Assembly (NCBI RefSeq): GCF_040054535.1
Contig: NC_090797.1
Span: 6,751,001-6,815,000, forward strand
Reading direction: 5' to 3'
From: Antennarius striatus
Lineage: Eukaryota; Chordata; Actinopteri; Lophiiformes; Antennariidae
Length of the DNA stretch: 64,000 nt
Within the stretch, counting starts at the first letter, position 1. Every line of letters begins with the position of its first letter. Positions 7,761 to 16,700 of this stretch are shown in pieces. A program made the translations under genes and the position numbers. Under the pieces are notes generated by a model that was not told the origin of the DNA, searched no databases, and worked only from the letters and a program-made list of their open reading frames with translations.

Positions 7761-10700
7761 TCACTTCCAGGTGGCAGCGGTAGGGCGGACGCCCGTACTT
7801 CCCTTGGTGGCCTTTGACCCCACAGACTGACCTGAGCGGCTCCGCAGGTCACGCTCGGCATTCTCACTCTGCGCCTGCTCCTCGTCATACCTGGTGACAC
7901 GGAGAGAAAATCAGGGACCATGGAGTGTGCTTATTTTATCAATATCCCCGTAGTAAACGCTAAATAAATAAAACAATGGTATCATATACCGTACAAATAA
8001 ACACATATGCACATCTATATGTTTTCATTTATTATGCAACAATAAATTGGTTTTATTTTATTAGAATTTTGTTAACCTTTAACTGATGTTATGGGAATCA
8101 AAGTCATGTGACGCATTAGCACACCACAGAGCAAGTAGTAAAATCCCTTGTTTTTCTCAGGTGAGTGTTTCAGAAGCTCACTTCGACAAGTCACATCCTG
8201 TCAGTTAGCTTTTTGTCTTTTATTCTCTGCTCCTCTGTCTACTTACTAATCCCCTGTCTCATTTAAATTGAGGCTACAATTAGTTTGACCCGGGCCAGGT
8301 TAGCGTCTCAGTACATGCCTCCATTGTAACTGAACTTGAAATATGTACGTTAGGCACACAATAAAGCGCACTAGAATATTCTGAGATAAAAAGAAAAAAA
8401 TATTACTAATGAAAAACTTTAAAATCGAGGCATTGAAAGCACACAATTCAGCATAAATGCAACACTAGCAATATTAGCTAGTGAAAAACATTAAAGATAA
8501 TACGCTATCAACTCACTGTAAACACCTGAGTGAAGAGTATCTTTGGACAAATAACGAATAAATATGTCATCTGGTTATTATTTCTAGTTAAGCCACATTT
8601 AAAAATAAAGGTCACTCCTTCGAGCCGGATTTGAACCAGCGACCTAAGGATGTCTGGTATTTCCACTACAGTCCTCCGCTCTACCAACTGAGCTATCGAA
8701 GGGCTTAGAACACACTAAAAATAGATCTGCTTTTGTACTCACTTAGTGAGTGGTGCACAAAACCTCCCCACACTGAGTAAACCCTCCCCCCACTGACCGC
8801 TGAAGGTTGCTGAGTTTTCAGCTTCAAGTTAACACAGGTCAACAACACAATGTTATCTGTTTGGCAAGAGCAACAGGTCAGTTCAGCACTTGGATTAGGA
8901 GATATAATATGAAGACAAATAGTCAAAAATGTAGCACTGGATGTGTGAAGAGTCAGTATTGTGAAAATGAAAGCAAAAAGTTTGCTGAGTTGTCTTGAAG
9001 TGCGTGTCACTGAAGCCGTCTTGCGGCACACCTGTGGCTGACAGGTGTCTATATGTCACTCACAGGACTTGATAGTTGCCAAGGGCCTCTCGGGGTGGGC
9101 TGCGATTCCAGCGGCAGTCTGGGATGTCCCCGTTGGGCATGACGATGTTGAGAGTGTCATTAATGAGGTTGTACTTCAGGATGCGGTCATTGGCTGTGCT
9201 GGAGGTCAGCGAGGGAGAGGCATTGACCTGATGAAGAGAAGAATGCTGTTTTATTTTCTGTTGCTCTTTATCAAGTAAACATTTCTGCATTTAGCAAACA
9301 CTGGAAAACTGATAGCCTTGGCTATGGTCTGTTCACATGTGGGTTGTCTGCTAGCATGAGGAAAGAACTGGTTTGTGACACATATTTCTTCTTTCTTCTT
9401 GTAATACAAAGTCTGTTCAGCTGGGGTTACGCACATCAGGGGTTAAAGACACACCTTCAGCACACATGTGAGCATGGAAAGGCACACAAAAACACACAAT
9501 GATCCACCCTAAGGGCATTTAAAGTTGCTTAACTCTGAAGACAAAGAAAAGTGTCACTGTCTAAAGACGTTAAGTATCTGTTCTTTTTACAATAAGCAAC
9601 AGGTGCCCTCAGGGACATAAAGATGTGAAGTCTTAGCAAATTAAACCCTTTGGTGAGAGTTTCTAGGTGCGCGTGCATGTAATAACAACACCTGTTTAAC
9701 GACTCACCTCTATAAGCCATGGCTTGAGCTTGTCATCAATGATGATGTCATACCCGTAACACTCGAAACAGTGCTTATCGTTGTTCATCACCGACTAGAA
9801 GACAGAGAAGACACACTGAATAAGGAAGAGGAACTGACTGTGTGATTGCAATATGTTAGAGGCATTCTATTATTGCAAGACAGAATGATTCAGAGAAGAA
9901 ATACGCAAGAGGACATAACTCTTGGTATTAAGTAAAAAAATTCTGAGTGTTAACGGCAGAGAGGAAAAGTGAGTCAGACCACTGAGCAGAAAAGAGAAGA
10001 AATTAGCTAAAAGTACACACTATTCCTTGTTTTCATCTGCATTGTGTTGATCCATATTTACTCCAAACCATGGGTGTCGTTCGTTTTGGTATGGGGGCCT
10101 TAATTTGATCTCAAAGGGGTAAGACCAATAAATTCACAGCAAAATGACACAGAAGTAACAACAAGTTGTTTTTTCTTTGTATTAGTCCAAAGAACAAGAA
10201 GTAAATAATAAAAATCTGAGGCTGGACTGGATCAGGTATGCAGGCCACACGTCTGACACCCCTACTCTAAATTGTTGATGGACATGACGACAGAAGTTAA
10301 AAAACAACTCCTTCGAGCCGGATTTGAACCAGCGACCTAAGGATGCCTGAAAGCGTTCACTACAGTCCTCCGCTCTACCAACTGAGCTATCGAAGGTCTA
10401 CCAAACTGTTCCTAAACACACTAGTCACTCTTACTAAAGAATTTAAACAGCAAAGATGTCAGGAAATCATTCATTCATTCATTTTTTGAGCCTATCCCAG
10501 CGGACTTGCAGGCAAGAGGCCGGGAGACTCATGACTCATGTATTTTTGTGTGTTTTTATGTTTTTATGGTAACTGATAGACACAGACAATTCCTCATCAG
10601 GGATAAATAATCCATTCATCCATTCATGGCATATGCATTTTTTTTAGCTTGCAAAAAAATCAAGATTCATCATATCCTACATTGTGATAATCATGATAAA

Positions 10701-13700: not shown

Positions 13701-16700
13701 ATATACTGCCTACACTGATCTCAAAACAATGAGATTAAATTCTTCCATCCTGAGTTTTTTAGTTTAAGAATATTATTACACAACAAGCAACGAAAAGTCA
13801 GTCCTTCGAGCCGGATTTGAACCAGCGACCTAAGGATGCCTGATTCTCACCACTACAGTCCTCCGCTCTACCAACTGAGCTATCGAAGGCACAAACTTTG
13901 CCAAACATGGAAAACATACGACCAACTGTAATTAGAGAATACAAGCACATAATAAGGGAGCCAGATGTTTCACTACTTACAGAACAGAAAATATTAAATA
14001 CTGAATTACATCACACATTATTTTAACTTCAATTATAATCACACTGAAAATCAAAAATGCCCGTCAGTGCTCCTATTTCCATGTGTCAAGTTTCTCCTTC
14101 AAGCCACACCTAAAAAAGGAGCCCAACATATATTGGACATATTCTTCCTTCATTGAGATTAAAAAAGATTAAGAACATTACACTACAAGCTAGTCCTTCG
14201 AGCCGGATTTGAACCAGCGACCTAAGGATGACTGACATTTACCGCTACAGTCCTCCGCTCTACCAACTGAGCTATCGAAGGACAACCAACTAACTAAACA
14301 CACCAGTCACTCTCACTATAGTAATGCACACGTTGCAAAAAACAAATCCTCTACTGTAGCGCAAAGATTTCCAAAAATCACTTGTTTAATTTTTCAACAC
14401 AAATTCATAACATATAATATACAGTTTGAGTATTCCATTAAAACATATTATCGTACAACAACCAATTAAAAGTAATCCTTCGAGCCGGATTTGAACCAGC
14501 GACCTAAGGATGACTGACATTTACCGCTACAGTCCTCCGCTCTACCAACTAAGCTATCGAAGGCTCAAAAAGACTCAAAAATGATAAATATACAACCAAC
14601 TGTTATTAGAGAATACAAATACTTAAGTGAGCTTGATGCTTCACCACTTTAAAAAAGATTAAGAACATTACACCACAAGCCAATGAAAAGCTAGTCCTTC
14701 GAGCCGGATTTGAACCAGCGACCTAAGGATGCCTGATTCTCACCACTACAGTCCTCCGCTCTACCAACTGAGCTATCGAAGGGCTGGTAAATTGCAAAAA
14801 CTTTTAACACTTTGTTCCTCAGAATAACAAAAATACCAGTTTTCCATAAACTGCTTAACCCTTCAGAATGTTTTTGGAGTTCTGAATCACTGTGGGAGGA
14901 GCTGTCAGACACTTTGGCAAAAAAAGAAAAGAAAAGACTATTTACTTACAGCTACAGCTTTCAGTGACTGCACCACAATCCAGTGGATCTGGTCAAACAG
15001 TCTGTTGGTCACTTCCTTCCCTCTGGTGCTTTCTAGGTACAAACGGAGGTTACTGACCGTCCACTTGCCTCCATGGATGTGGTTGTAGTCATCCTATATT
15101 AAAAGGTACACAGTCTAACTACATTCTGGAATACACATTGTTTTCAGTGTTAAATTATTGACAGGAGTCCAGAGTTTTGGACCTTCTGCTAGCCAGTGTG
15201 ATTTAAAACTCAATGTATTGTGTTTACTGTGGTTTGACAGGACCCCAAGTTCAATACTGCACTTGTGATATATGCATTAAATAGAATCGAAAATACATCA
15301 CTCCATGGTGATTTTAAATATTATATTAAGTTAAACATTAATTGTACTCATAGCAAACAGGATACAGACTCACCCCATGTTTTTGGATGGCCACGTTAGT
15401 GAGGTGAACAAACATGTTGTCCAGTTCACTGGTGCTGGGTGTGTACTTCACTGTACAGAACCGACAGAAGCCCAGCTTGTACCTGAGGATGAAATCACAC
15501 AATGAGATCAATCAACTTAAATGCAACACGAACCTTGTCCTGTTATATGACACAGGTAATAAATTACAACTAAATGGTGTGTGTATCAAATAACAGAGTA
15601 TGCCATAAACATTCAGGACTCACATGTAACATTTAAGAGGCCGATACGTGGTTACCAGGACGTAGAGACGCAAGTCGAACTTCTTGCCTCCTATCAACAG
15701 GGGGTTGTCGATGTACAAGGAGATGACGTAGGCCTCTTTGCCACTGGCTGCAGCTACAAATCTGGGGACACAAAGCCATACATCAACAAAACAAAATCCT
15801 CTGTCTAAAATAAAGTGTTCCGGTTGGGAATCTCGAAAAACAAATCCTCATGGCGTACAGCATTCAAAAAACATTTCACTCCATCCGTATTCAGATTCAA
15901 AATGTTAATCTGTGTACTCAAATGTAACCGAGCTGGGAACAGTGCTAATTTTTAACAAAACTTACAGGCGAGAGCATGTGTACGCTGTGTAAAGATGATG
16001 TCTTTGGTAACTCACGTAGAGGTGCGGCTATCTCTGGACCATTTTTTGATCTGGGAAAGTTTGTTGATGAGGAAGATGCCTTTGCCCTGAGCCTTCCCAC
16101 AGGGCTTCATGATCCAAGTGCTGGATGGATTCTTGCGGAACTCCTCCACAAAAAGATTATAATCAGCAGGGAGCATGAACGTCACAGGGACAAAATCTGA
16201 CCAAAGCACAGAGCATATGTTTATGAATATTTAGAACTAAATTTTCCTGTGCTTTTTGATAAAAGCACTGGAGTACATGCACATGATCACATGCATCAAA
16301 AATGTAAAAAAAACCTAAGTAAATGTATTTTCCGTTCTCATCCTTCTCTGCCAGTGGACTGCTCTCCTTCTCCAGTTCCTTGCGATAACGTTTGATGTTC
16401 TTGATCATCAAATCTTTTCTGGTCAGCTCATAGTGGTTGGGGAAGTGGTTAACCATCTGGTCGTCAGACAGACGATAGCCAGTGTCCACACTGAAAACAT
16501 TCCTGAGGGTCTGGATGCTCATCCTACATGTTGATACAAAAAAAATCAGCGTTCAGGAGTCTGGGCATAAGCTTGATGATATAAGGTAGTCGCACATAAC
16601 ATGTGTATTTCCATTTAATTCAGCTTCTCCTCCCACTTTTCATGAGCATATATTACATTTTTAATCCCTTAAATGTATTTAACATTACTCAATTTGTATC

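Follow-up and report, generated by a model that had tools for sequence, protein, structure and literature searches.

A tRNA-Tyr gene array, probably active and apparently amplified in place, within an intron of a ttll1-like gene of Antennarius striatus

How does a whole series of transfer RNA (tRNA) genes of one kind come to lie in a single intron of a protein-coding gene, and are such genes likely to work there? The question is raised by a 64,000-nucleotide stretch of the Antennarius striatus genome (G000:C22:6751001-6815000; genome of 548 Mb in 42 contigs), hereafter the window, where fourteen tRNA-Tyr genes lie within introns of one ttll1-like gene. On the evidence below, we regard them with good confidence as a locally amplified, probably active tRNA-Tyr array in a position that its host tolerates. 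Rfam family RF00005 matches the window 14 times (scores of 55.5-60.4 bits, cut-off 29 bits; E 1.4e-10 to 3e-9), always on the minus strand. ARAGORN reports 0 tRNAs under its default, which disallows introns, and 14 tRNA-Tyr(gta) genes when introns are allowed, with a tRNA intron of 14 nt in one gene and 15 nt in thirteen. Every copy has the cloverleaf, a GTA anticodon and an intron one base 3' of the anticodon, and all 14 share the minus strand with the host and are thus in the sense orientation. Thirteen copies (10309-14782) occupy intron 6 and one (8616-8702) lies in intron 8. The initial annotation had proposed this distribution, together with a GUA anticodon, a 14-15 base tRNA intron and the direction of the host gene for every copy; Rfam and ARAGORN with introns agree with it, and its placement of the thirteen between exons 6 and 7 is correct for coding exons.

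The host belongs to the tubulin-tyrosine-ligase family. Its nine coding exons run from 16896 to 7761 on the minus strand (16896-16784, 16523-16315, 16196-16016, 15761-15624, 15482-15374, 15093-14950, 9794-9708, 9227-9064 and 7890-7761) and join into a frame of 424 amino acids, with all eight introns GT-AG and a match of the product to Pfam TTL at E 3.4e-105. The closest solved structures by sequence are TTLL6 and TTLL7; from the protein ends, we take the gene to be ttll1, whose product is ciliary. Searched against its own genome, the host protein gives 24 matches, nine at the host locus and 15 in other places, none of these above 60% identity, and no second close ttll1-like copy was found in that protein search. 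These exons and their GT-AG frame place the tRNA genes between coding exons, as genes nested in the host when read from the sequence. The array takes up 4474 bp of the 5155 bp of intron 6 (14949-9795, minus strand), or 87%. Intron 8 (9063-7891, minus strand) measures 1173 bp, and the remaining six introns 118-480 bp each.

Most of the intron 6 copies are organized as a higher-order tandem repeat. Between 10825 and 14649, three full units and a partial fourth follow one another with a period of about 1127 bp and three tRNA genes per unit. Upstream flanks sort eleven genes into three types, all on the minus strand: type 1 in units 1 to 4 (10825-10912, 11952-12039, 13080-13167 and 14194-14281), type 2 in the same four units (11110-11197, 12237-12324, 13365-13452 and 14476-14563), and type 3 in units 1 to 3 (11549-11636, 12677-12764 and 13802-13889). 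In the full units, all three of them, successive tRNA genes start at spacings of 285, 437-440 and 392-403. The full units are pairwise 97.0, 95.4 and 97.9% identical, units 1 and 2 sharing a stretch of 529 bp without any difference. Identity of the partial fourth to the full units is 92-94%. Head-to-tail units of such high identity make this a tandem tRNA array.

In the 100 bases upstream of the genes, identity is 75-78% between types 2 and 3, whereas cross-group pairs otherwise share 53-66%, compared with a shuffled-flank baseline of 60.5% (standard deviation 2.9, 95th percentile 65.0). Two outer copies, also on the minus strand, complete the thirteen: one at 10309-10396, with a tRNA intron and flanks of its own, and one at 14695-14782, whose 100-nt upstream flank is 54-63% identical to those of other copies, within the shuffled level. 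The flanks of the intron 8 gene (minus strand; 14-nt tRNA intron, run of five T at offset 10) also fall in the shuffled range relative to the array (53-62% upstream, 59-65% downstream), and this gene may come from a separate seed or be too old to tell. A genome-wide DNA search with the array spacer at 11640-11940 gives eight matches, all within the array, and found none outside it.

These patterns are consistent with amplification in place. A sense tRNA-Tyr seed in ttll1 intron 6 would have been multiplied by unequal recombination, initially into the diverged types 1, 2 and 3, and in a second step through copying of the three-gene unit of about 1127 bp to three full units and one partial. The oldest copies (10309 and 14695) would go back to that single seed. 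Three unit-level alignments start exactly at tRNA edges (10825, 11952, 13080 and 14194), and type 1 genes bear either of two tRNA introns, which together suggest tRNA genes as the probable site of some crossovers. The shared sense orientation of the thirteen would then follow from their duplication from one seed. The initial annotation was right that there are thirteen copies in intron 6; as products of tandem duplication, they are not independent of one another.

Most copies probably work as RNA polymerase III (Pol III) genes and contribute to the supply of tRNA-Tyr. Twelve of the 14 have the same 73-base mature sequence; copies 11952 and 14476 carry one substitution each, C to T at mature position 62 in the T stem and C to T at mature position 13 in the D stem, respectively. 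We take these stem positions to fall in the B box and the A box. Internal promoter sequence is unchanged in 12 of the 14 copies, and a run of four or more T begins ≤10 nt downstream in 13; the exception is copy 14194, where the first such run is at offset 27. If transcribed, this copy (14194-14281) is predicted to give a pre-tRNA with a longer trailer. Intact bodies and terminators are marks of Pol III genes, and the earlier claim that most copies look functional is borne out.

The pattern of divergence argues for working tRNA genes. Seven distinct tRNA introns occur among the 14 genes. Between types 2 and 3, the mature body differs at 0 of 73 positions, the 5' flank at 35, 37 and 35 of 258 (three units), and the tRNA intron at 5 of 15. 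Fisher tests give p 8.1e-5 to 1.4e-4 for body vs flank and p 7.7e-5 for intron vs body, although the three comparisons come from near-copy units and are worth about one test. A diverged tRNA intron between identical halves favors selection on the mature tRNA over gene conversion. Such selection would keep the mature sequence across copies while the rest of the unit changed.

More than half of the intact tRNA-Tyr genes that we found are in this one host. With one tRNA-Tyr gene as a DNA query against its own genome, we obtained 27 matches and scored all of them: 14 in the host gene, 11 other intact genes and two degraded matches. By this one-query census, 14 of 25 intact Tyr genes (56%) lie in a single protein-coding gene, a share that the initial annotation did not know and that strengthens its idea of a notable array. 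The 11 other intact genes have bodies with 0-2 differences (four identical, seven with 1-2) and a run of four or more T within 7 bases. One degraded match has nine differences and no run of four T in 150 bases, and the other is a 75-base partial. One intact gene, C2:25234403, is called Asn(gtt) by ARAGORN, while direct reading gives the anticodon GTA. Mature position 57, in the T loop, is A in all 14 host copies and four others and G in the seven others, hinting at two Tyr gene lineages in one genome. A wider Rfam search of the genome, in which 63 of 80643 candidates were scored, is not used for tRNA totals. Elsewhere, a run of tRNA genes extends over about 52 kb at C17:19108968-19160734; ARAGORN on two stretches of it gives Thr, Asn and Ile. 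AGBL5 opposes TTLL1-type enzymes, and a human tRNA-Tyr gene presumably lies near AGBL5. A corresponding link here was dropped: Pfam Peptidase_M14 has 58 matches in the genome, none closer than about 136 kb to any Tyr gene found, the closest being on C20.

Could the array be an artefact, or a set of dead copies? Short reads can give a wrong count of 1.1-kb units that are nearly identical, and an assembly error could affect the number of copies or their position. The window contains no N, however, and the full units lie 23-51 substitutions apart. Both ends of the array pass into non-repeat intron sequence between exons 6 and 7, and the spacer is matched nowhere else in the genome, all of which makes such an error highly unlikely. 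On the spacer matches, an assembly duplicate of the array was also rejected. Vertebrate genomes are rich in tRNA-like repeats, and the copies might in principle be pseudogenes or a tRNA-derived retroelement. This is exceedingly improbable given 27 matches in 548 Mb by one query, identical bodies in 12 of 14 copies, terminators in 13 of 14, and the constraint test. An origin as a short interspersed element (SINE) was rejected on the same one-query copy number, and the spacer is confined to the array. A host-transcribed noncoding RNA of the Drosophila RNase P RNA type, which would have lost its Pol III signals, was rejected since those signals are kept in most copies here.

Is an intronic, sense position unusual in itself? 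We surveyed the surroundings of the 11 other Tyr genes at 10 places (a pair on C20 counts as one), about 9.5 kb on each side. Open reading frames (ORFs) were ranked by a codon score for which ttll1 was the sole training gene (best nine per stretch, score limit 11), and ten were compared with Pfam, a scope from which we claim no intronic rate for Tyr genes. At least one further Tyr gene, C22:12907453-12907540, is in the sense orientation in an intron, flanked on either side by ankyrin ORFs that are joined by a splice that reads through. Its ankyrin-repeat host is presumably ANKRD16-like. C2:25234403 may lie inside a formin-type gene, its surroundings having an FH2 match of 28.1 bits, below the cut-off of 34.8. 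The intron 8 copy and the ankyrin-gene copy are two more sense cases, too few for an orientation test. In other animals, the intronic share of tRNA genes is described as 44% for the worm (47% in another place of the same paper) and 46% for the fly (PMC4999229, PMC9249942), and the worm share is given there as not above chance (PMC4999229/PMC9249942). These base rates and the ankyrin-gene case make the intronic position, which the initial annotation had presented as notable by itself, weak as an oddity. The array probably came to lie in this host by accident and is tolerated there. Its position would be incidental and neutral, with the tRNA genes leaving in the excised intron, and the Pol III genes would run along with, not against, RNA polymerase II (Pol II).

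The initial annotation suggested that the array might slow elongation, insulate, or tie tRNA-Tyr supply to a ciliary gene. Regulation of ttll1 by the array, or of the array by ttll1, is possible; control of the array by ttll1 is the more plausible of the two, and a brake exerted on ttll1 by the array the less plausible. The ttll1 promoter or chromatin might set the tRNA-Tyr output of the array, which would be compatible with local amplification and activity. In C. elegans, an intronic tRNA of the sup-7 type is under the control of the host promoter. Between Caenorhabditis species, 32-52% of tRNA-host pairs are reported as kept (PMC4999229/PMC9249942); here, the ttll1-like gene holds 14 of the 25 Tyr genes found intact. 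However, the eleven intact genes elsewhere could buffer supply, full internal promoters in 12 of 14 copies and close terminators in 13 differ from Drosophila RNase P RNA as described, and 21 Tyr among the 424 residues of Ttll1 make its demand unremarkable. We consider this coupling unlikely. A further version, in which the placement of most genes of one isoacceptor in one Pol II gene would physically couple ttll1 transcription to tRNA-Tyr supply in a vertebrate and co-direction would have been selected because it allows passage of both polymerases, seems to us quite unlikely. In the reverse direction, Pol III units in intron 6 might slow Pol II and reduce ttll1 output. In intron 1 of Polr3e, a Pol III unit lying antisense is described as causing Pol II pausing and lower expression, and an antisense reporter lost 20-30% (PMC5358760); nine antisense tRNA-Pro genes correlate negatively with an Arabidopsis gene (cited in PMC5358760). 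Yet all 14 copies here are sense, and the sense Pol III unit in the reporter intron had no measurable host effect by the same account. A strong brake would be less likely on this comparison, although the reporter carried one sense unit rather than thirteen in a row, and we find any such braking very doubtful. A third relation would run through the ttll1 pre-mRNA, where, with or without Pol III, the tRNA folds would be cut by tRNA-processing enzymes or alter splicing. Sense orientation does put all 14 copies within the pre-mRNA, Drosophila RNase P RNA is described as coming from an intron via the host promoter, and intronic tRNAs of mitochondrial origin are reported as splicing regulators (PMC7722341). 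Against this, 13 of the 14 copies keep Pol III terminators, and cleavage of the intron ahead of splicing would presumably cost mRNA; we give this route very little probability.

Several observations weigh against an active, tolerated array. As reported, worm tRNA genes inside introns are less occupied by Pol III than the rest, with sense intronic tRNAs below antisense ones (PMC4999229/PMC9249942). The lower sense occupancy disfavors a strongly active array here. The share of 14 of 25 genes may be large enough for some coupling to the host. Copy 14194 has no near terminator and two copies have stem changes, so some copies may be inactive. Short-tract gene conversion may still have contributed to the identity of the mature bodies, and at their far ends (13538, 12410, 11283 and 14649) the unit alignments do not stop at tRNA edges. 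With these points counted, a locally amplified and probably active array in a tolerated position remains our preferred reading.

Tandem tRNA arrays and intronic tRNA genes are each known; for their combination here, our searches of the open-licence literature gave no match. As in C. elegans and Drosophila (PMC4999229, PMC9249942), tRNA genes lie within introns of Pol II genes, but unlike the cases described there, a single intron is filled by thirteen genes of the same kind, which together with the fourteenth make up most of the Tyr genes found. The human 1q23.3 tRNA variable number tandem repeat (PMC4041453) is likewise a tandem multi-tRNA unit of about 98% identity. It differs in its 7.3-kb unit, whose five tRNA genes vary in kind and strand, and in its 9-43 units with copy number variation shown; the text of that report, as available, does not use the word intron. 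The Arabidopsis tRNA-Tyr-Tyr-Ser and tRNA-Pro arrays (PMC11700998) are also tandem and tRNA-Tyr-rich. The Tyr-Tyr-Ser array had 27 triplets at first report and is not strictly made of triplets in a newer assembly (PMC11700998), and it is a longer plant array with Ser mixed in, not described as intronic in the available text. Arabidopsis NUDT22, with nine tRNA-Pro genes (cited in PMC5358760), is alike in having a homogeneous cluster over one Pol II gene, but that cluster is given as antisense, whereas the array in the ttll1-like gene is sense. The MIR in the Polr3e intron (PMC5358760) resembles the array in being a Pol III unit inside an intron of a Pol II gene; it differs as a single antisense SINE described as a roadblock, with a sense construct that had no measurable effect. 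Within the open-licence literature, we found neither a one-kind tRNA array that fills an intron and holds most Tyr genes nor a paper that joins tRNA-Tyr and ttll1.

With thirteen putative sense Pol III units in one intron, the locus offers a natural setting in which to test how Pol II and Pol III behave on shared DNA, and several copies can be distinguished through their tRNA introns. Copy number in the array is probably still changing. If individuals vary, ttll1 output and tRNA-Tyr supply could be compared without engineering; if copy number has no effect, this would show how well densely packed, co-directional Pol III genes are tolerated in an intron.

Of ten neighboring ORFs in the window compared with Pfam, three have no match. 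Upstream of the host, an acyl transferase domain lies at 22597-23085 on the minus strand (33.3 bits, cut-off 32.7). This ORF is probably mcat; in human, too, MCAT adjoins TTLL1. A Frag1/DRAM match at 53583-53798 is below the Pfam cut-off. Other ORFs match a PH domain (27994-28191), tetraspanin (37395-38609), C2H2 zinc finger (42045-43592), the TINF2 N-terminus (45822-46265) and Stealth CR1 (57653-57796).

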